NCBI GenBank assembly: GCA_026712925.1
Contig: JAPOPJ010000271.1
Coordinates: 1 to 38,390 of the forward strand
Reading direction: 5' to 3'
DNA: 38,390 nucleotides
From: Nitrososphaerota archaeon
GTDB lineage: Archaea > Thermoproteota > Nitrososphaeria > Nitrososphaerales > Nitrosopumilaceae
The position numbers and the translations under genes were made by a program. Positions 7,249 through 31,314 of this stretch are shown one piece after another. The notes under the pieces were generated by a model. That model worked only from the letters and a program-made list of their open reading frames with translations, ran no database searches and was not told the DNA's origin. Position 1 is the stretch's first letter. Every line of letters begins with the position of its first letter.

Positions 7249-7462
7249 TTTTTCCAAAACTCGGAGCTTGGGTGGACAAAAGGTGTCAAGGGGTTTATTG
7301 TATAGATAATATCAAACACAGCAAGAGTGGTCGCATACTACACATCAAAATCCATTTTGACATCGATGAAGAATCCAAAACACGACAAATTTACTACTCG
7401 TGATGAATATGCCCACATCAGAGGTTAAAATCAGTAAAATGCTGAGTTTATGGAAGGATCTT
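7249..7462 (+). repeat. Dispersed element copy A, upstream of PIN module 1
   Basis: The left end CCAAAACTCGGAGCTTGG matches the left end at 31387-31405 (CTCAAATTCGGAGATTGG). The core shares 'CAAACACAG.AAGAG', 'CATACTA', 'CCATTTTGA' and 'AATCCAAAA' with the copy at 31374-31594. The right end GAGTTTATGGAAGGATC corresponds to that copy's right terminal repeat. The alignment was made by eye and the copies are diverged. Confidence 0.65.
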
Positions 7463-7503
7463 TTTTTCATGCAATTAATATACATCCTTATGTTAGAATT
7501 AGC

Positions 7504-8040
7504 ATGTCATCAATCACATTACTAGATGAAATTACAAATAGAATAAACACCATGAATGCAGAGAATGTGATAGATGTCACTATATGTAATAGTCTAACCG
7601 AATTAAATGAAAAAATGATAGAAATTGATAAAAAGTGGTTAAAAATCGATCATGAAAACAGTTTTAGATTCTTTTGTGGAGTAGGAGCTGTTGAATTACT
7701 TCTTGAACAAATGATAGAACGATTTCAGATCGAAGGAAAACAAAATGATTTGCAGATTGTACGGGACTCTTCAGATGTGATTCCGCTTGCATGTGAGATC
7801 ATTCAACTTGCAGAACAGTATAACCCAGATGATAATCTAGCTGAGCAAATATCAGAAAAAAGACTTCAATTACGCGACTTGGTAAGGGAAAAAAACTTGT
7901 TAGAACCTGTTGAGCGAAATCTGCGTGACATTGACAAAAAATTCCTTGGAGAGGTGTTTGATAAAATGTTGGAAAATATTGGAGCTCCAAGAGAAATACC
8001 TACAAATGTGAGTGTTGATGAGATTAAAAATACTTCTTGA
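7504..8040 (+). CDS. Helical partner of PIN-like nuclease, copy 1
   Basis: The family is not recognised. The protein is soluble and almost all helical, with a conserved core 'GAVELLLEQMIERFQIE', then 'VIPLA.EIIQLAEQYNPDD' and a charged helix 'ISEKRLQLRDLVREKNLLE'. It ends in 'NVSVDEIKNTS' and overlaps the PIN gene by 23 nt, so translation is probably coupled. I chose ATG 7504 over ATG 7450: a TTAATATAC box lies about 25 bp before 7504 in all three copies, the 7450 start falls inside the dispersed element, and base changes between copies upstream of 7504 are not codon-like. By position it resembles an antitoxin or immunity partner, but this is inferred from gene order only. Confidence 0.75.
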   Translation: MSSITLLDEITNRINTMNAENVIDVTICNSLTELNEKMIEIDKKWLKIDHENSFRFFCGVGAVELLLEQMIERFQIEGKQNDLQIVRDSSDVIPLACEIIQLAEQYNPDDNLAEQISEKRLQLRDLVREKNLLEPVERNLRDIDKKFLGEVFDKMLENIGAPREIPTNVSVDEIKNTS

Positions 8041-8857
8041 TTCTACCATTATGATTGCCGCAAGTATTTACAACACTCGTGATAAGACAGGCTTGGTAGA
8101 AAATAGATCAGATGCAACAGATCTGATTAACGAATTAAAAAAACACGTAAATGAAAAAATAGGAATAACAACGCAAACACTATATGCTGAGTCTATGAAT
8201 GCAGTTGAAAAAGGAATAAATGATGCCATGCCTAAAACATTATCTAATTTTGACAGAGTGAAAACTCTACGACAGTCAATAAATGTATGTGAAGATGAAG
8301 TTTATAGACTTTCCAAGTACTTGTATCAATATACCTCTGAATATCTAAAAGGGAAAGAACTACAAGACGCAAAAGATGAAATTGAAAAACTGTCAAAATA
8401 CATCAAAGTAAGACATGAAACAGTGTACAAAGATGAGAATAGTCAACGTAAGGAAGCTGAGCGTAGAGCCAATCTTGAAATCAAACAACAACAGAATAAA
8501 CAATTGTGGTATGTTCTTTTTAAAAAGTATCTAGAACAGATACGGATAGAATCAAAACAAGTTAAAAAATTTGTGAGTAAAGAACCAAATGCTAAAAAAT
8601 TTGACAGTAAAAAATCAAAAGATGGAAATTCAGGAGACAAACGCATACTGGCAGAATCTGCCGCAATCAAACACAAACATGAGAAAAACAAAGAACCCAT
8701 CGATTTTTACATTGCATCGTATGATACTGGATTTTTCTCAGCGCAAATAGTAAATGGTAAGAAATCAGATGTAGTGACAAAAGAAATAAAGAAAAGATTT
8801 GGAATAGTTTGTGAACACCCAAGAGAAATTATACGACAGTGTTTTTCTGATAGATAA
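8018..8857 (+). CDS. PIN-like nuclease with long helical insert, copy 1
   Basis: PIN domains are Mg-dependent RNases common as VapC-type toxins. The pattern fits: an N-terminal strand with the first acid (KILLDSTI, D8), an acidic residue after the second strand (TQTLYAES, E58), then near the C-terminus GDKRILAES (D207) and FYIASYDTGFF (D236), followed by 'RFGIVCEHPREI'. Between E58 and D207 lies a charged, coiled-coil-like insert of ~140 residues, making the protein 279 aa instead of the usual ~130-150. ATG 8018 is preferred to GTG 8012. It overlaps its partner gene by 23 nt. The PIN call is by motif and needs structure prediction to confirm. Confidence 0.7.
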   Translation: MRLKILLDSTIMIAASIYNTRDKTGLVENRSDATDLINELKKHVNEKIGITTQTLYAESMNAVEKGINDAMPKTLSNFDRVKTLRQSINVCEDEVYRLSKYLYQYTSEYLKGKELQDAKDEIEKLSKYIKVRHETVYKDENSQRKEAERRANLEIKQQQNKQLWYVLFKKYLEQIRIESKQVKKFVSKEPNAKKFDSKKSKDGNSGDKRILAESAAIKHKHEKNKEPIDFYIASYDTGFFSAQIVNGKKSDVVTKEIKKRFGIVCEHPREIIRQCFSDR

Positions 8858-8934
8858 AATTAGTTTGAAAATAAGATTACAGTCTAATTAAAATAAGAAC
8901 TATCATTCTAAATTAATTTAATTATGAATTATTT

Positions 8935-9106
8935 GGTATTTTTTTGCCAAACTGTAACAAGACAAGCGTAACCAACAACTCCCACACTCCAAAACCCATT
9001 CTAGTGATGCTGGGTAATCCTAAATGTCTAAAATATGTTATAAAAGACAGACATGTCAAGGTCAGAGAGTCAGATTAACAAAAGCCTCGAATTTGCAGAA
9101 GGATCC
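8935..9106 (+). repeat. Dispersed element copy D, upstream of PIN module 2
   Basis: The segment beginning CAAAACCCATTCTAG near 8992 aligns with CAAAACCCATTTTGA at 31476-31490. Similarity continues through 'AATCCTAAATGTCTAAAAT' to the right end CTCGAATTTGCAGAAGG, which matches the right terminal repeat at 31571. The left end is decayed. A T-run at the start (TATTTTTTTG) may terminate module 1. Confidence 0.6.
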
Positions 9107-10724: not shown

Positions 10725-10889
10725 TTTTTTGCCATACTGTAACAAAGCAATAGCAACCAACTACCCCCACATCACAAAATGCATTTTAGAGATGATGTGT
10801 AATCATAAGTGCCTAAAATTTGTCATAAAAGACAGACATGTTAAGGTCAAAGAGCCAGATTAACAAAAGCAAAGAGTTGTGGAAGAATC
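10725..10889 (+). repeat. Dispersed element copy E, upstream of PIN module 3
   Basis: Close to copy D throughout ('CATACTGTAACAA', 'CAACTACCCCCACATCACAAAATGCATT', then CATAAAAGACAGACATG) and ending AAAGAGTTGTGGAAGAATC, the decayed right terminal repeat. Compared with copy D it lacks one base near the 3' end, which breaks the frame that in copy D could be read from 9053. It starts with a T-run likely to terminate module 2. Confidence 0.55.
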
Positions 10890-10932
10890 TTTTTTTCATG
10901 CAATTAATATACTACCTAATGCTAGAATTACC

Positions 10933-11469
10933 ATGTCATCAATAACATTACTAGATGAAATTACAGATAGAATAAACACAATGGATACTGAGGGCATGAT
11001 AGATGCCACAATATGTAATAGTCTAACCAAGTTAATCGAAAAAATGATAAAAATTAAAAAAAAGTGGTTAACAGTCAATCATGAAAATAATTTTGATTTC
11101 TTTTGTGCAGTAGGAGCTGTGGAATTACTTCTTGAGCAAATGATAGAGCGGTTTCAAATTGAAGCAAAATACAATAATTTGCAAATTGTATTGGACTCTT
11201 CAGATGTGATTCCGTTGGCACGTGAGATCATTCAAATTGCAGAACAGTATAATCCAGATGATGATCTAGCTGAGCATATATCAGAAAAAAGACTTCAATT
11301 ACGCGACTTGGCAAGGGAGAAAAATTTGTTAGAACCTGTTGAGCGAAATTTGCGTGATATTGACAAAAAATTTCTTGGAGAGGTATTTGACAAAATGTTG
11401 GAAAATATTGGAGCACCAAGAGAAATACCTACAAATGTGAGTGTTAATGAGGTTAAAAATACTTCTTGA
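10933..11469 (+). CDS. Helical partner of PIN-like nuclease, copy 3
   Basis: Paralogue of the genes at 7504 and 9149, with the same helical core and a C-terminal end nearly identical to copy 1 (EPVERNLRDIDKKFLGEVFD). ATG 10933 has TTAATATAC about 26 bp upstream. A GTG at 10879 would add 18 residues, but in exactly this stretch copy 3 differs from copy 1 by several replacement changes in a row and no silent ones, as expected for noncoding DNA. It overlaps the PIN gene by 23 nt. Confidence 0.73.
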   Translation: MSSITLLDEITDRINTMDTEGMIDATICNSLTKLIEKMIKIKKKWLTVNHENNFDFFCAVGAVELLLEQMIERFQIEAKYNNLQIVLDSSDVIPLAREIIQIAEQYNPDDDLAEHISEKRLQLRDLAREKNLLEPVERNLRDIDKKFLGEVFDKMLENIGAPREIPTNVSVNEVKNTS

Positions 11470-12286
11470 TTCCACCATTATTATCGCCGCAAGTATTTAC
11501 AACACTCGTGAAAAGACAGGCTTGGTAGAAAATAGATCAGGTGCAACAGACCTCATTAATGAATTAATAAAACATGTAAATGAAAAAATAGGAATAACAA
11601 CGCAAACACTATATGCTGAGTCTATGAATGGATTGAAAAAAGGTATAAAAAATGCCATGCCTAAAACATTATCTGCATATGATGAAACAAATACTCTAGA
11701 ACGTTCAATAAATGTATGTGAGGATGAAGTATATAGACTTTCCATGTACTTGTTTCAATATACCTCTGAATATCTAAAAGGGAAAGAACTACAAGACGCA
11801 AAAGTTGAAATTGAAAAACTATCAAAATATATCAAAGTAAGACATGAAACTATGTACAAAGATGATGATAGTCAACGTAAGGAAGCTGAGCGTAGAACCA
11901 AGATTGAAATCAAACAACAACAGAATAAAGGATCATGGAAAGTTATTTTTGAAAAGTATCGAGAACAAGTACGAATAGAATCAAAACAAGTTAAAAAATT
12001 TATGAGTAAAGAACCAAATGCTAAAAAGTTAGATGGTAAAAAATCAAATGATGGAAATTCAGGAGACAAACGCATACTAACAGAATCTGCAGCAATCAAA
12101 TACAAGCTTGAGAAAAACAAAGAACCAATTGATTTTTACATTGCATCGTATGATACTGGGTTTTTCTCACCACAATTAGTAAATGGTAAAAAATCAGATG
12201 TGGTGACAAAAGAAATAAAGAAACGATTCGGAATAATTTGTGACCACCCAGGAGAAATTATACGACAGTGTTTTTCTGATAGATAA
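11447..12286 (+). CDS. PIN-like nuclease with long helical insert, copy 3
   Basis: Intact paralogue of copy 1 (279 aa) with all four candidate acidic positions: LLDSTI, TLYAES, GDKRILTES and YDTGFFS. Most differences from copy 1 lie in the helical insert ('MPKTLSAYDETNTLERS'). Retention of the acids in two of three copies suggests that catalytic function has been maintained. The ATG at 11447 is preferred over GTG 11441. The 3' flank, ending in a T-rich stretch near 12366, is shared with the other modules. Confidence 0.7.
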   Translation: MRLKILLDSTIIIAASIYNTREKTGLVENRSGATDLINELIKHVNEKIGITTQTLYAESMNGLKKGIKNAMPKTLSAYDETNTLERSINVCEDEVYRLSMYLFQYTSEYLKGKELQDAKVEIEKLSKYIKVRHETMYKDDDSQRKEAERRTKIEIKQQQNKGSWKVIFEKYREQVRIESKQVKKFMSKEPNAKKLDGKKSNDGNSGDKRILTESAAIKYKLEKNKEPIDFYIASYDTGFFSPQLVNGKKSDVVTKEIKKRFGIICDHPGEIIRQCFSDR

Positions 12287-12521
12287 GATTAATTTGAAAA
12301 TAAGATTACAATCCAGGTAAATAGGAATTACCCATTCTAAATTAAATTATAACAAATTATTGGGTATTTTTTATCATACTGTATGCCTTTCTCAAATACC
12401 CACATATATTTTGCAATGAAATTATTGTAATCTATTTTCTTTTATTTTCAACATTTACTTTAGCCATACCTTGAGTAAACATGACAAACATTATTCTTTT
12501 TCATTATAAGTAGATTAGATG

Positions 12522-23815: not shown

Positions 23816-26800
23816 TCATGGTACAGGTGCAGGTACAAACCCAGTACCAGGCACATATGTTCCGTAGCGCTCCCATCCAGACTCGCCGATTATCCATATA
23901 GCATAGCTTGCTTCTGCTGCATCACCTGCGGCATTAAGTGAAATGTTTCCTATTGCGCCACTATATTGTGATGTAATCATTGGTATCTGCCTCTTTACAT
24001 CCTCAAAGCCAGCATCACCAGTAGCCTCAATGGCTAGGCCGAGAATCTGCACACTATCATAAGAAGCATAGGCATACACATTGGGATTGCCTTCAATTCT
24101 AGGATCCTCTGAAAAGCGCGTATTTAGTTCTGTGTACATCGGACTAGTATCATCAACATCAAATATCCGCTCCCTGAATTTTGTATTCTTTAGAAACTCT
24201 AGCACTACTTCATTATTCACTAACACCTCACTTTGAACATTAGCATCAGAGCCTATCCACTGTACACTGTGCAGTATTTCATGAGCGGCTGCTTTTTCCA
24301 TAAAGACCTCAGTCTCACCAATTCCCACATACATTACAGCAATTTTCTCACTTCCATGTTCATTTACAAGCAGTTCTATTTTATCTGCCAAAGTTGCAGT
24401 CATTTCCTCAAACATTGAATCATAACAGTCAGGTATATCACATAGTGGATAACTTTCAAAGTCATCTACCATACCACCCATACTCTCAAATGATGCAGCA
24501 GTACTATTACGCAGTCCATTACCAAACGCATCATCCCTCCACACAGGAACAAGTACACTAATCCCATCATCAGTGAGTAGCTGTGCTGCCACTACACCTT
24601 GCAGAGAATCATCAGGGGCAAGGCGGAATACATTATCTCCTTCATTTGCAATGCTAGGTGCAGTAGAACAGCAGCTGAGAAGTAGCATGTTATTTGCATT
24701 AAGATAGTCTTTAATTTGTGCAATACCACCGCTAGCAGATGGACCAGTGATGTACCTAATTCCATCATCATTAAATGACCTAACAGGCTCTACATACCCC
24801 TCAGATGCAGTATCAGCAACCTGAATATCTAGCCTCCATGTTGCATTTTTTTCACTCAAATATTCATTAAAGTCATTTACTGCATACTCTGCGGCTACAT
24901 TTCTGTGAACTCCTGCACCGTCTGCCCTAGTTACTGGGATTAGACCACCAATCTCAACTATTTCTACCCATGCCCCGTCAATTATTCTCCACACGGCATA
25001 CTGGCCATCTGCACGGTCACCGGCACTATTTAAAACCGTATTTCCTGATGCCCCTACATACTTTGCAGACACATCAGACAGAGAGGCCTTGACATCACTT
25101 ACATCAGTACTCTGTGCATCTAAAATGGAGAGTCCTAGGAGCCACACCACATCATACTCAAAGCTAGTATAGACACTTGGTGCCCTGTAAAATTGTACAT
25201 TATCCTCAAAGTGTTTTGCAATCTGTTGTGTAATTACATTGTCATGGACTCGTGGTTGTACAGATACCAGCCCTACACGCTCTGCAAATTCAAGCGCAGT
25301 TTCATTATCAGTTATGTTCGGATATGCAGTATTTACATCTGCACTATACCACTTTACACCATTTAATACATCATGCTTGCTTGCCTCGACTAGAAAATCA
25401 GCATTACGCTCAAACCCAACATACAGCACTGCAACATTCCCAGCACCATTGTCAATCATTTGCTGTACTGCATCTGCAAGGGTAGCAACAGGTCCTTCAA
25501 GGTCATCATTATAACTAATCACACCTCCCATTATATTCCCATCAGACATACTCTCAAAAGAGGTACCAGTCAATTCCAGCAAGTCATTTACCCAAATATT
25601 CTCAAGCCCCACAGGAACAAATGCACTGATATCATCACTATTCATGACATCAGCTAGTTTTTCAGCGTGCTGTGCATGTCCTGGTGCAAGTCTAAACATT
25701 GCATCATTATCAATTGCAAATGGCGTAGTAACACTACAACAGCTCAACAAGAGCATGTCATTTTCATTTGCATATCTGAGTAATGCAGTATCATAGTCTA
25801 TTGCATTCCCATCAATAATCTTGATGTTTGAATTATTTAGTGCAGTGAGTTCCTCTAGTGCAACAGCAGGATTAGTTTGGGAGTCACGCCTATCCACTGA
25901 AAGTGACCATCCTGCATCAAGGCTTTCCAGATAATCATTAAAATCATTTACTGCAAGTATTGAGGCGGCATTTATCTCCTCACCATACTTTGTCGCACCA
26001 CCAGATAATGGTGCTAGTGCACCTATTGATATTTCACCCTCAAGGGAAGTCCTTTCTGCTGCAAGATAGTTCCAGTGGCCCGGACTTAGTGGATATGACG
26101 GATCATCAAATGCCCTCACTACAAGGCGCATCTCAGGGATATACTCATCAAGGTAGAATGGTCCATTGCTTATCACGGCTGTACCCTTTTCTGTAATCCA
26201 GTTAATTGATGCGGCATATCTCGTGTCAACATCTGTCATATCATCATACACACCGGCAGGTATCATTCCATCAGACATCATCCCTAGTGCATTCTTTATC
26301 AAGGCGACATCCATATCATCTAACATAGAAATCCACGAGACATCATTACTCACTGCAACAGAATTTGAAAATGCGGCATCACCATTTAGCACCACGGCCT
26401 CCATTGCAGCTTGCACCTCCCATGGTATGCTACTCCAAAGCAGTGCACGAGATGCAATTTCAGATTCATCAAAGTGCCAATAATCCACATACACATCTAT
26501 TGTATCATCATCAATTACGCGTATTCCCTTTATCAGAGGATTTGCACCTGCTGCTAATTCGGGATCATACTTTGCCACATCATCGGGGTTTGAGCTAGAC
26601 TTTGTAATCCATTCTCTATATAGGTATGTAGGATACATCACATCATTAATGTCCATTGGTATTCCATTATGCCACTTGCTAAATTTCAAATCAACTCTAA
26701 CCTTACTAATTGACTCTGTACCCTGTGGTAATGTTGTCCACTCTTGGTTTGCCGCATCCCACATGACAGCATCATCATGGAGTGTAATCATACCATCAGG

Positions 26801-29800
26801 ACCATTGGTATCTACAGACCATGCAACCCTTACTGGTGTCAAGTCACCTGTAAATGGATCCCTCACGGCAGCTGGATCGCGTAATATATTCCAAGTATAT
26901 GTGCTATATGTGTCTGTAAATCCTGAAACTGTATTCCATGGACTCTGTCGGATGTATTTTACCCCGACTACTAAATCATCATCACCGGCATTTGCATTAA
27001 TTAATGTGGCTCTGTTTGTAATTCCTTGGCCTTGTGCATTTACCACGCCTCCAATACCTTCCACTGCAACGTATTGGTCATTTTCATATCCAAGAAATAT
27101 CCTTACAGATTCTTGTACACCCGCCAAGACTGCCTCTCGGACTAGATTTGCTCTCTCAGCGTTATTGGAGTACTCTTCATTGTATATCCTCATAGTAGTC
27201 TCATCCAAAAATTCATTTTCATAGTTCCAATAATTAGGGTTGTTCAGCCCCGGCATAAATGAACCCCATGGTGCATAATATGTTGCAATGCTGGTATTAT
27301 CATATTTGGTTACTGTAGGTCCGCCAAATGCTCCAGTGTAAATGTGCCAATCAAGGTTTGCAGGGTTTGAACCATACACCACATTAAACGCATCATTAAG
27401 ATTTCCATTAATTATATCCACTGCAAATCCTAAACTGACAAGCTCTTCAGCAAGAGAGTTTCCAATTGCATCTCTAATGGAATCATCATTGCGTATGAAC
27501 ATTTTAACAGTTATCTGTGTATCATCCATCAACCATTTTCCATCATACTTTGTAGCTCCATTTTCTTCAAGAACATCGCTTATCATCATGTCTGCCATAT
27601 TTACATCATATCTGATTCCAAGGTTTTCAATGTCTTTATACACTAAAAGATAGTCATTGTGCGTGGGCCCAAATACAGATAGCATGATATTGCCATGCCC
27701 TCGGAAATGCTCACGTACTATTTCTTCCCGGTCAACTAGAAAATTAATAGCATAACGCATCTCTTGGAATGCAAATGGGTTGAACTGATCATCAACATCA
27801 GCAGGGTTTAGAAATAAATCATAAGTTACACCACCTATAGACTCAAATCCCTGCACACCTTCAGGCAAGCCATCTTCTGTTTGGTCACGCGGTATGGGGT
27901 AATAGTACATGTCAAATGAACCATCTTGTACCTCAGATAGTGCAGTTGTCTCATCATTATACTCAATGAATGTTATCACATCTACATTGGTGCCACGATC
28001 AGAGGCAGGCAATATTGGTGCTAGGCCAATCATCATTGTATATGTGGAATCAAATGACGTGCCAGAAATGATTAGTGCACCTGGTACTTTTACACCATTA
28101 GGGTATGTGTGGATTGGTGATGTTGCTTCATAGCCAGCTGGTAATACCACCTGTGCAAGAAAGTCTGCTGGAACCAAGTCTGCCCTAGTTGCCACACCAT
28201 TTGCATCAGTGAATATGCTGGAAAGTGGACCAATTGTATATGTGTATGCAGTTATCTCTATTTCTGGAAATGGTTTCTCATTATCATCCATTATACCATT
28301 TCTATTATTATCATAAAATGTAGTGACATCAAGTGTGATTAGCTCGTCTGCCGGTACGGGATAAAATCCAATATTAAATTCACTAGCAGTATAATCATCA
28401 AGTGCTTCATACGTGTACCATTTCTCTGAGGATAAAATGGTACCAGGAGGATAGTACGAGGACTGGACTAGTATCAATCCAGGTGGCATCTCAAAGAACT
28501 GGGTATATTTGCCATCAGGTGTGGTGATTAGTTCTGTAAATGTTCCAGTTGAGAAATTAAAAGTAATTATTTTGTGATTTGCAATTCCTAGCTCACCTGC
28601 ATCCATATTGCCATTATTATTAACATCTGAAAATATTGTACCAGATAGAATAGTACCATTTAGCATCATGAGGTGAAGTACATCAGTGCCGGTGGAATCC
28701 TCTGATACCTCAGGGCCAGGTGCACCTGCTGCTAAATCTGGTATGCCATCCATGTTAATATCACCGACAATTGCAACAGAAGAGCCAAACAAGTCCACGC
28801 CGCCAAGATTCGGACCATTTGGAGTATCTGCATTAATTTCAAAAGTGTTTTTTATTGCACCATTACTCTCAAGGTATAAAACATACAAGTCACCTGTTCC
28901 TACACTTTGTGTGTGATGTCCTGGAGCACCTACAACAATATCAGGTGTACCGTTCCCATCAATATCTCCTAGTGATGCAACTGATTCTCCAAATAAATCA
29001 CCCTTTACAAGGGAATTAGGACCGTTTGGAGTTTCAGAGTTTATGTCTATTGTATTTAGGATTGCCACGTTTTCATCAAATAAAATGACATACACATCAC
29101 CAGTAGTGTTGCCGCGGTCATGATACCCCGGCGCGCCTACAACCATATCTGGTGTACCATTCCCATCTACATCACCAGCAGCTGCAACTGAAGCACCAAA
29201 CCTGTTGCTGATTTCTAGAAATGGCCCTTTAGGAGTATCGGCATTTATCTCAACTGTTCTGATTATACTGCCATCCGCATTAAGGAGTAATACGTAAACA
29301 TCACCAGATGCTATACCTCCTACATGATGTCCAGGTGCACCTACTGCAATATCTGCTGTGCCATTCCCATCCATATCACCAATATTTGCAACAGATGTGC
29401 CAAACAAGTCACCAGTTTGAAGTGATTCGGGCCCATTTGGAGTCTCAGAGTTTATCTCCATAGTTTTCAGAACAGTACCGCCATTTCCAAGTAGTATGAT
29501 GTATACAGTACCAGTATTTTGAGTATGGGTAGGATGTCCTGGTGCACCTACTGCAATATCAGGTATGCCATTCCCATCCATATCCCCAATATTTGCAATG
29601 GATGTACCAAACAAAGAGTATGGTCCAAGTGAGTCAGGACCGTTTGGAGTGCCAAGGGCTATCTCGATTATACCACCATCTAGTATAGCTCCATCTACAT
29701 CAAGCATCATTAGATAGATATCACCTATTCCAATTGTCTTGTCTTGGTGTCCCGGAGCTCCTACTGCAATATCAGGTATGCCATCCCCGTTAATATCACC

Positions 29801-30055
29801 TATTGGTGCAACAGATGAACCAAACAAATCATGCTCACCAACTGATGGACTGTGTATTTCAATTGAATTTTTTATCATAATATCTGCAAAAGACTCTGAT
29901 GTGGCAGGAATAGCCATAGCCACCACTGCAAAAACCACACAAATTGGTATTAGTATGTTGTTTTTCACCAACAATCCCCAGTATGGTACCAATTTTACTA
30001 GTATTAATTTCAATCCATGATCGCAGTTTTTTCTAGCAGGGTCCTCGCCAAACAC
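23816..30055 (-). CDS. Giant secreted multi-sensor protein: FG-GAP / SdrD-like / SBP_5 / two Peripla_BP_6
   Basis: About 2,079 residues. An N-terminal hydrophobic segment (NNILIPICVVFAVVAMAIP, cleavage near 'SESFA') is followed by six FG-GAP repeats of type 'LFGxSVAxxGDxDGNGxPDIAVGAPGH' (residues ~77-460, integrin-like propeller with Ca-binding DxDGNG loops). Next are two Cna-B/SdrD-like segments ('DVNNNGNMDAGE', 'DNNRNGIMDDNE', ~465-690) and an SBP_bac_5 peptide-binding region (~690-1330). Two Peripla_BP_6-type domains follow (~1345-1700 and ~1705-2065), each with 'MLLLSCCS'. There is no C-terminal anchor. GTG 29968 (MKNNILIP) would give a cleaner signal peptide than ATG 30055. It is probably a cell-surface nutrient receptor, but no ABC permease or ATPase gene is nearby, so uptake partners are unknown. 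Confidence 0.88.
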   Translation of the reverse strand: MFGEDPARKNCDHGLKLILVKLVPYWGLLVKNNILIPICVVFAVVAMAIPATSESFADIMIKNSIEIHSPSVGEHDLFGSSVAPIGDINGDGIPDIAVGAPGHQDKTIGIGDIYLMMLDVDGAILDGGIIEIALGTPNGPDSLGPYSLFGTSIANIGDMDGNGIPDIAVGAPGHPTHTQNTGTVYIILLGNGGTVLKTMEINSETPNGPESLQTGDLFGTSVANIGDMDGNGTADIAVGAPGHHVGGIASGDVYVLLLNADGSIIRTVEINADTPKGPFLEISNRFGASVAAAGDVDGNGTPDMVVGAPGYHDRGNTTGDVYVILFDENVAILNTIDINSETPNGPNSLVKGDLFGESVASLGDIDGNGTPDIVVGAPGHHTQSVGTGDLYVLYLESNGAIKNTFEINADTPNGPNLGGVDLFGSSVAIVGDINMDGIPDLAAGAPGPEVSEDSTGTDVLHLMMLNGTILSGTIFSDVNNNGNMDAGELGIANHKIITFNFSTGTFTELITTPDGKYTQFFEMPPGLILVQSSYYPPGTILSSEKWYTYEALDDYTASEFNIGFYPVPADELITLDVTTFYDNNRNGIMDDNEKPFPEIEITAYTYTIGPLSSIFTDANGVATRADLVPADFLAQVVLPAGYEATSPIHTYPNGVKVPGALIISGTSFDSTYTMMIGLAPILPASDRGTNVDVITFIEYNDETTALSEVQDGSFDMYYYPIPRDQTEDGLPEGVQGFESIGGVTYDLFLNPADVDDQFNPFAFQEMRYAINFLVDREEIVREHFRGHGNIMLSVFGPTHNDYLLVYKDIENLGIRYDVNMADMMISDVLEENGATKYDGKWLMDDTQITVKMFIRNDDSIRDAIGNSLAEELVSLGFAVDIINGNLNDAFNVVYGSNPANLDWHIYTGAFGGPTVTKYDNTSIATYYAPWGSFMPGLNNPNYWNYENEFLDETTMRIYNEEYSNNAERANLVREAVLAGVQESVRIFLGYENDQYVAVEGIGGVVNAQGQGITNRATLINANAGDDDLVVGVKYIRQSPWNTVSGFTDTYSTYTWNILRDPAAVRDPFTGDLTPVRVAWSVDTNGPDGMITLHDDAVMWDAANQEWTTLPQGTESISKVRVDLKFSKWHNGIPMDINDVMYPTYLYREWITKSSSNPDDVAKYDPELAAGANPLIKGIRVIDDDTIDVYVDYWHFDESEIASRALLWSSIPWEVQAAMEAVVLNGDAAFSNSVAVSNDVSWISMLDDMDVALIKNALGMMSDGMIPAGVYDDMTDVDTRYAASINWITEKGTAVISNGPFYLDEYIPEMRLVVRAFDDPSYPLSPGHWNYLAAERTSLEGEISIGALAPLSGGATKYGEEINAASILAVNDFNDYLESLDAGWSLSVDRRDSQTNPAVALEELTALNNSNIKIIDGNAIDYDTALLRYANENDMLLLSCCSVTTPFAIDNDAMFRLAPGHAQHAEKLADVMNSDDISAFVPVGLENIWVNDLLELTGTSFESMSDGNIMGGVISYNDDLEGPVATLADAVQQMIDNGAGNVAVLYVGFERNADFLVEASKHDVLNGVKWYSADVNTAYPNITDNETALEFAERVGLVSVQPRVHDNVITQQIAKHFEDNVQFYRAPSVYTSFEYDVVWLLGLSILDAQSTDVSDVKASLSDVSAKYVGASGNTVLNSAGDRADGQYAVWRIIDGAWVEIVEIGGLIPVTRADGAGVHRNVAAEYAVNDFNEYLSEKNATWRLDIQVADTASEGYVEPVRSFNDDGIRYITGPSASGGIAQIKDYLNANNMLLLSCCSTAPSIANEGDNVFRLAPDDSLQGVVAAQLLTDDGISVLVPVWRDDAFGNGLRNSTAASFESMGGMVDDFESYPLCDIPDCYDSMFEEMTATLADKIELLVNEHGSEKIAVMYVGIGETEVFMEKAAAHEILHSVQWIGSDANVQSEVLVNNEVVLEFLKNTKFRERIFDVDDTSPMYTELNTRFSEDPRIEGNPNVYAYASYDSVQILGLAIEATGDAGFEDVKRQIPMITSQYSGAIGNISLNAAGDAAEASYAIWIIGESGWERYGTYVPGTGFVPAPVP

Positions 30056-30140: not shown

Positions 30141-30644
30141 TCAAGTTAGATAAAGACTGATTGCCTGCTCTATTTCAGAGTACTCTGTATCAGACTTGGC
30201 AAGGCACTTGACTTCATCCCAGTTGATTTTGTGACTACAGCAAACAGCCAATCTTTGTAGGTCTTCAATGTCCTGATCGCGACCTGCCCTATACTTTGCA
30301 ATAATTAGGCCCTCCAAAGAGATGGTATTAACGGTGGTTCCTTTCTTGTCTACGGGAATTGCTGTTGCAGTCCTTATGATGTAATCAAGCGGAATCCCAT
30401 TTAGGTTCCGCTCATGATATACATCAACTTTGTAGTTTCTGGGTGTAAATTTTTTGCCTTGCAGGTCTATTTTGTACCCCTTGTCCAAAAACTCATCAAC
30501 TGTAATCTGTTTGGCAACAACAAAATCTAAATCCTGAGATTGTCGTTGCTCACCAGTATGCAACATAACTGCAACTGCCCCCACAAACGTGACATCTCCA
30601 AGATCCTGAGAAATGCACACTGCTTCTTTAATTAACGGTTTCAC
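30141..30644 (-). CDS. AbiEii-like nucleotidyltransferase (toxin candidate)
   Basis: The 167-residue protein has the minimal nucleotidyltransferase pattern: 'FVGAVAVMLHTGEQRQSQDLDFVV' (G...V, then RxSxDLDF with the two metal-binding acids), a later Asp-containing strand 'YKVDVYHERNLNG', and a helix 'LEGLIIAKYRAGRDQDIEDLQRL' typical of AbiEii/MenT-type proteins. It overlaps the upstream helix-turn-helix gene by 17 nt. In type IV-like systems the NTase is the toxin and the upstream gene the antitoxin and autoregulator. The call rests on motifs; activity on tRNA or other targets is not known. Confidence 0.75.
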   Translation of the reverse strand: MKPLIKEAVCISQDLGDVTFVGAVAVMLHTGEQRQSQDLDFVVAKQITVDEFLDKGYKIDLQGKKFTPRNYKVDVYHERNLNGIPLDYIIRTATAIPVDKKGTTVNTISLEGLIIAKYRAGRDQDIEDLQRLAVCCSHKINWDEVKCLAKSDTEYSEIEQAISLYLT

Positions 30645-31314
30645 TTGGCAAGTCCTCTTGAATTTTTAGTATTGTATCCCATGTAAATCTGACTTTGGTT
30701 TTTATCATGTCCTTGTGTGTCAGCATGATGGCAGCTGCATCCAGAAAGCTTCGCCCGCCATTTGCCACACAGTCAAGAAAGATCCTCTCAACTGAATCTT
30801 CAAACGAGCCAGTTTTTGGTAATAACACCACATTGCCCCTTTTTCCTTCTCTGAATCCATAGCTCTTTAAAAACTTGGAGACTTTTTCCACATCATCAAC
30901 ATAGACAAACAAATCAAGCGGAGTCTGAAACTTTGTTAGTTCATAGGCTTTGTAATCAAGCGTGATGACGGAGTCTTTTGGAAGATGTTTTTTCATAAAG
31001 TTGACATCAGTTGGTTTGTAATGTCGTCCAAACCTTCTGGCTTTTTTGAGCGCCATTAAGGAAGGGAGTATATTTTGCAAAACAAAATACGGTTGTGAAA
31101 TCACCTCCCTTTTTATTGAAAATTTTCCACGGCTGTAATCTGCCAGCCCCAGATCTTCTAGACAAGCCAGTCTTCTTTTTATGGTCCTAGCAGACAGATT
31201 GACTATATTTTCCAAATTCTTTAGATTATAGATTGGGTTTGAGGGCAGCTCCTGTGCAAATATGATCGCGCTTCTTGCCTTTTCAAGCATTGATGTAGAT
31301 TCCTGCATGTTCAT
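30628..31314 (-). CDS. wHTH regulator, antitoxin-like partner of the NTase
   Basis: The N-terminus has a winged-helix pattern ('NLKNLENIVNLSARTIKRRLACLEDLGLADYSRGKFSI'). The remaining ~150 residues include 'SVITLDYKAYELTKFQTPLDLFVYVDD' and 'LDCVANGGRSFLDAAAIML', resembling the C-terminal part of AbiEi-type antitoxins or NTase-associated regulators. The gene overlaps the NTase gene by 17 nt. Its promoter has a perfect palindrome between box A and the predicted start site, suggesting autorepression. ATG 31314 leaves a leader of about 24 nt; ATG 31308 is also possible. Confidence 0.75.
   Translation of the reverse strand: MNMQESTSMLEKARSAIIFAQELPSNPIYNLKNLENIVNLSARTIKRRLACLEDLGLADYSRGKFSIKREVISQPYFVLQNILPSLMALKKARRFGRHYKPTDVNFMKKHLPKDSVITLDYKAYELTKFQTPLDLFVYVDDVEKVSKFLKSYGFREGKRGNVVLLPKTGSFEDSVERIFLDCVANGGRSFLDAAAIMLTHKDMIKTKVRFTWDTILKIQEDLPSETVN

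Follow-up and report, generated by a model that had tools for sequence, protein, structure and literature searches.

The question raised by this locus is whether the two halves of a family-5 solute-binding domain can stand in exchanged order in one chain, or whether such an order betrays an accidental joining of fragments. The window is the whole stretch analysed, the 38,390-nucleotide contig JAPOPJ010000271.1 of assembly GCA_026712925.1, from a Nitrososphaerota archaeon of the family Nitrosopumilaceae, and the element in question lies within a large protein encoded on its minus strand. A reading of the letters (the original prediction) had located four family-5 motifs in this protein in an order described as B-C-A, explained either by a domain permuted within the chain or by two partial domains that had been joined. 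The analysis reported here indicates that amino acids (aa) 691-1330 very probably form an entire family-5 solute-binding domain (cluster C, Opp/Dpp-type) that is circularly permuted, a member of a conserved archaeal family named P1 here for its B-A order. The features that carry this finding are the following:

23816..30055, minus strand: one open reading frame encoding a putatively secreted multi-domain protein of 2079 aa with the permuted domain; the start codon is uncertain, the most upstream being the GTG at 30055.
27035..27985, minus strand: B half of SBP_bac_5, aa 691-1007, corresponding to what is the second half in ordinary family-5 proteins, through to the original C-terminus (Pfam, match to 7fi3, half-specific model, VIA-align).
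26981..27034, minus strand: short joint, aa 1008-1025, through which the old C-terminus is linked to the old N-terminus (borders from half-specific models).
26066..26980, minus strand: A half of SBP_bac_5, aa 1026-1330, equivalent to the first half of an ordinary family-5 protein (Pfam, match to 7fi3, half-specific model, VIA-align).

The four motifs were found where they had been reported, all within the single minus-strand frame at 23816-30055: ALSEVQDGSFDMYYYP at aa 705-720 (27896-27943), MRYAINFLVDREEIV at aa 766-780 (27716-27760), KFSKWHNGIPMDINDV at aa 1124-1139 (26639-26686) and NGPFYLDEY at aa 1297-1305 (26141-26167). The Pfam profile SBP_bac_5 (PF00496) matched the protein at 73.8 bits, against a curated cut-off of 32.4, and its positions 147-350 were matched first (aa 690-914) while its positions 28-139 were matched later in the chain (26102-26677), which indicates that the inverted segment order is real; a search of NCBIfam with the window protein gave no model above cut-off. 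When phmmer was run against the PDB, OppA of Thermococcus kodakarensis (7fi3), which has the ordinary order, was matched by both halves of the window domain in swapped positions (E 4.8e-27), query residues 364-647 corresponding to chain residues 22-309 and query residues 25-272 to chain residues 331-601, and the family profile likewise matched 7fi3 in two stretches, at 310 bits. Hidden Markov models (HMMs) specific for each half scored 427 bits for B and 396 bits for A on the window, in the order B then A; since these models were built from an alignment that contains the window sequence, it is the match to 7fi3 that provides the independent evidence for the swapped order.

All segments of the two-lobe family-5 fold are present once in the window domain and none is doubled. 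The inversion that had been noticed was thus borne out, whereas the three-part label was not: there are two blocks, the second half and then the first, so that 'circularly permuted' describes them better than 'B-C-A', and because its segments run B then A the domain is filed as a circularly permuted SBP_bac_5 variant and not as an ordinary member. With ordinary family-5 (cluster C) proteins, such as OppA, DppA and NikA, of which 7fi3 is the nearest solved structure, it has in common every segment of the two-lobe fold, the conserved motifs and, in its relatives, linkage to Opp/Dpp permeases. It differs from them in the B-A order of the halves, in the joining of the old termini and in the new termini, which lie where the old halves met, and also in that the window domain sits in a 2079-aa fusion without an anchor. 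In terms of chain topology, the short linker connects the old C- and N-termini, and the new opening of the chain separates the old halves, immediately ahead of the strand leading to the 'GeiD' motif.

The structure prediction that had been proposed as a check was made with AlphaFold2, the joint input being the window domain and 20 relatives (21 sequences), and it gave a single confident model over the whole length of the domain, 676 residues (predicted local distance difference test, pLDDT, 86.2; predicted template modelling score, pTM, 0.84). The structure comparisons were sequential, and each half was mapped separately. In VIA-align, the B half (model residues 11-356) corresponded to residues 330-754 of 7fi3 (Z 27.2, root-mean-square deviation (rmsd) 4.5, 340 aligned) and to residues 199-507 of DppA (1dpp; Z 21.4, rmsd 4.6, 298 aligned), DppA being covered to its last residue. 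The A half folded alone (pLDDT 85.3, pTM 0.85) corresponded to 7fi3 from residue 42 (Z 31.4, rmsd 2.6, 294 aligned) and to residues 9-190 of NikA (3dp8; Z 9.7, rmsd 3.5, 171 aligned). As B maps to the C-terminal part of DppA/NikA-like proteins and A to their N-terminal part, the halves are complementary. Foldseek with the whole model gave a template modelling score of only about 0.4, because a single half is alignable in sequence; a permuted fold would be expected to behave in this way, and the score was not counted against permutation. The fold matches seen for the permuted segment were cluster C proteins, and no type I Pfam family was found over it. It weighs against the reading as one domain that the predicted packing of A on B comes from one AlphaFold2 model with 21 sequences.

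Within the window alone, the two separate pieces given by Pfam would also fit two incomplete solute-binding domains, or an assembly chimera, lying side by side in the contig. However, the pieces are complementary and not redundant, the joint model is confident as a whole, and the same order recurs far beyond this contig. A profile search with PF00496 gave matches in 19 of 21 genomes, and the half-specific HMMs placed B before A in the window and in all 20 relatives fetched from those 19 genomes, the window's own genome included; in L042, the A half was matched in two pieces. In the own genome, a second permuted copy is found on contig C320, in a frame of 824 aa in which a hydrophobic N-terminus is followed directly by the B half. 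In a named genome collection, a relative is encoded in 471 stretches; the best 80, which come chiefly from Nitrosopumilus, Nitrosarchaeum and further ammonia-oxidising archaea, have the B-A order in all 80 cases, and this order is also found in complete genomes. The family model matched 109 of the 120 genomes of the class, where 94 genomes gave 96 matches that cover 660 or more of the model's 827 positions in one alignment (hand count), and 122 of the 151 genomes of the phylum; among the matches listed in the phylum-wide search, collinear B-A proteins occur in many further families. The window itself, which is one of the 21 rows of this model, scored 940 bits over model positions 13-691, and its identity to the alignment rows of its own family is mostly 39-45%. 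Finally, the fusion in which the window domain is embedded exists in a second genome (see below). The conserved order in independent genomes therefore rules out a chimera or a pair of partial domains, an explanation that we regard as barely credible. The permutation in the window protein is real, as the first of the two earlier readings had it, and the B-A order, found in hundreds of relatives that are mostly stand-alone proteins, characterises, as a conserved trait, an archaeal family of Opp/Dpp binding proteins.

The usual P1 member has about 820-900 aa. Its hydrophobic, signal-peptide-like N-terminus precedes first the B half and then the A half; an extra domain or a Thr-rich stalk comes next, and the chain ends in a membrane anchor. 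When proteins were scored with a simple hydropathy rule, the hydrophobic C-terminal anchor was present in 55 of 60 proteins (58 with B-A and 2 with A-B order) and absent in the window protein, L161, L163, L036 and L037. Two further observations concern the distribution of the family. G060, a near-complete single-contig genome of the own family, gave no match to the permuted protein though a type I binding domain is present in it, and the record BMAH01000059.1 (L089), titled Gammaproteobacteria bacterium BBSC-SA02, carries an archaeal permuted protein and is probably a misassigned archaeal contig.

With regard to function, BPD_transp_1 (OppB/OppC-type) permease genes adjoin the permuted gene on the same strand in nine of the 19 genomes that carry it (G005, G007, G008, G015, G016, G017, G018, G019 and G020), and in G015, G017, G018 and G020 oligo_HPY (OppD/F-type) ATPase genes belong to the same cluster. 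Given this adjacency, the P1 protein probably serves as a functional subunit of a transporter. Where genomes of the own family were matched by PF00496, the permuted proteins were the only matches, and the own genome also has OppBC-type permeases and oligo_HPY ATPases. The simplest reading of these gene neighbourhoods is that P1 proteins are the predicted binding subunits of Opp/Dpp-type importers; they may work like ordinary family-5 proteins, in which case the two lobes would close on a peptide-like ligand and hand it over to OppBC. Against this stand the ten of 19 genomes, the own genome among them, in which the permease genes lie away from the permuted gene, and the window copy itself, whose gene has no permease beside it and whose protein has no C-terminal anchor.

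The order of the halves was not the same everywhere in the phylum. In the archaeal family f39, four genomes (G242, G175, G406 and G410) encode proteins with the ordinary A-B order, and two others (G407 and G408) encode a third arrangement, named P2, whose cut lies about 100 residues further on than that of P1. Comparison of an ordinary protein with a P2 protein showed that the exchanged parts are 58% and 62% identical, residues 38-487 of L220 corresponding to 374-829 of L221 and residues 495-821 to 58-384. Between an ordinary and a P1 protein, residues 16-374 of L134 correspond to 469-799 of L199, and residues 397-826 to 69-489. In a tree computed from 46 rows that share one register, the f39 proteins (four ordinary, two P2) fell inside P1 at three successive branches (support 97/94, 100/100 and 100/97), with 7fi3 outside these branches. 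From all trees L151, L152 and L214 (weak halves) and L213 and L150 (B half only) were left out, and for the careful trees L042, L205 and other rows that were close or long were dropped as well.

Such nesting bears on a rival account in which the ordinary order of f39 is ancestral and P1 evolved at one and the same site on several independent occasions. A chain is easily opened at the hinge that separates the halves, and the root of the tree is insecure owing to long outgroup branches, both of which speak for repeated origin. On the other side, in addition to the three supported branches, the approximately unbiased (AU) test rejected a topology in which a single branch sets all P1 rows apart (p-AU 4e-7), the two denser tests addressing the same split, which like the groups had been chosen after the first trees were seen. 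The junction sequences also disagree with repeated origin. The joint between the old C- and N-termini in P1 reads W, A/G, L/I, R, T, about four residues, D, G and then the old N-terminal strand, and a joint of this type is present in P2 proteins too, whose A-to-B link resembles that of the ordinary f39 proteins; the co-occurrence of both is explained by a B-A-B intermediate derived from P1 and trimmed in two ways. We consider repeated origin rather improbable. A P1 gene may instead have been duplicated, and the resulting B-A-B form trimmed to the ordinary A-B order in four genomes and to P2 in two, so that the ordinary order in f39 appears to be a reversal through a duplication intermediate, which is favoured by both the tree and the junction sequences.

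Some points tell against such a reversal. An earlier AU test with fewer relatives was borderline (p 0.044) and the result became clear with denser sampling, the root is not firm, and no surviving B-A-B or A-B-A-B protein was seen among the frames listed in the family searches, no dedicated search having been made for one. L234 and L240 were suspected of carrying, behind the A half, a remnant of a repeated B start, but the tail of the alignment was too weak to count, and the idea was discarded. Under a quick rooting with four distant proteins of ordinary order, f39 remained nested and 7fi3 was placed inside the permuted group, a placement that long branches make unsafe, and for that reason 7fi3 is not proposed here to be a reversal. 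Taken together, it seems reasonably likely that a permuted Opp/Dpp binding protein is in use throughout the archaeal phylum and that the permutation is reversible, f39 having passed through B-A-B to the ordinary order and to P2.

Within this family, the window copy is an unusual paralog: it lacks the anchor, and the permuted domain shares its chain with FG-GAP repeats, SdrD_B domains and a pair of type I binding domains. Along the 2079-aa protein, the Pfam order is FG-GAP, two SdrD_B, SBP_bac_5, Peripla_BP_6 and ANF_receptor, the parts outside the permuted domain being:

28646..29848, minus strand: FG-GAP repeats (beta-propeller type), aa 70-470 (PF01839, six stretches, E 4.4e-42; boundaries approximate).
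28118..28636, minus strand: two SdrD_B-like domains, about aa 474-646 (PF17210, two stretches, the best at aa 579-646; start of the first approximate).
24977..26035, minus strand: type I binding domain 1 (Peripla_BP_6), aa 1341-1693 (PF13458).
23894..24904, minus strand: type I binding domain 2 (ANF_receptor/Peripla_BP_6), aa 1718-2054 (PF01094).

The window domain grouped with L161, from another genome (G267), at 100/100 support, and L161 is collinear with aa 692-1696 of the window protein (42% identity over 1015 aa), that is, across the permuted domain and a type I domain, so that this fusion exists in two genomes. In both sister proteins, the extra C-terminal domain or stalk and the membrane anchor of the P1 family are absent, and in the window protein the type I domains follow instead. 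It was considered whether the permuted domain of this copy no longer binds a ligand and is a mere structural spacer in an adhesin-like surface protein, as its long branch shared with L161, the missing anchor and neighbouring permease and the fusion to FG-GAP and SdrD_B would allow. However, the domain is 44% identical to the C320 paralog, which is of the working type, and its fold model is confident, and a spacer role is thus thought unlikely. The window protein may rather be a secreted or surface paralog in which the anchor was lost and several binding domains were gathered on one chain.

Related type I binding domains are numerous in the own genome, which also has BPD_transp_2 permeases, and in a few other genomes. 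Huge proteins with repeated domains of this type are expanded in a few genera of the own family, as in G261, where contig C1 has frames of 4055, 2364, 2203 and 1690 aa, and also in G277, G267 and G054. The FG-GAP and SdrD_B part has two more copies in the own genome (G000), at C209:8197-10035 (66% identity) and C312:5986-7773 (57%). The neighbours of the window gene, among them a gene of the formate/nitrite transporter family and an elongation-factor-type GTPase, do not form an Opp operon. Just upstream of it, at 30141-31314 on the minus strand, a DUF6036/AbiEii-like nucleotidyltransferase gene overlaps a 228-aa gene without a family, a pair that looks toxin-antitoxin-type. Elsewhere in the window, at 7380-8960 and 10809-12389, there are two copies of a two-gene unit (overlapping frames of 196 and 281 aa) in the same orientation and with highly similar DNA, for which no Pfam family was matched.

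Natural permutation is already known for a binding protein of type I. According to the available text of PMC4990184, TpMglB-2 (Tp0684) of Treponema pallidum is a permuted glucose-binding protein, designated 'Type Ic / cluster Bc', whose permutation is tied there to membrane tethering. Like P1, it is a natural circular permutation of an ATP-binding cassette (ABC) transporter binding protein conserved in a lineage; unlike the family-5 window domain, it is bacterial and has a type I (cluster B) sugar-binding fold in which three strands of the N-lobe were moved (PMC4990184). Literature searches for permuted solute-, substrate- or oligopeptide-binding or periplasmic proteins, which did not cover most subscription journals, yielded engineered sensors, designed ribose-binding halves and TpMglB-2, and no permuted protein of the family-5 class was found reported there. 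In sponge-associated ammonia-oxidising archaea, livFGHMK transporters and mixotrophy have been reported (PMC6790972, PMC7848895); both type I domains found in the window protein belong to the LivK kind, whereas the available text of these two sources does not mention a fusion to family 5, FG-GAP repeats or a permutation. Permutation by duplication has been described for saposin/swaposin and DNA methyltransferases, again in the available part of the source (PMC3320104), with a predicted route through tandem or partly trimmed intermediates that resembles the one proposed here; the present case differs in that three arrangements occur in one family and one of them has apparently returned to the original order.

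These results concern a group of abundant organisms, the ammonia-oxidising archaea, in which peptide import of the Opp type appears to rely on a binding protein that is recognised only partially by profile databases. Since PF00496 reports one half or two broken pieces, the permuted architecture is easily overlooked. Through the permutation the two ends of the chain, together with the membrane anchor, come to lie elsewhere on the protein, a shift that could be tested as an adaptation to the tethering of archaeal binding proteins. In addition, three arrangements among proteins that are about 36-62% identical provide natural and closely matched material on the origin and the reversal of circular permutations.

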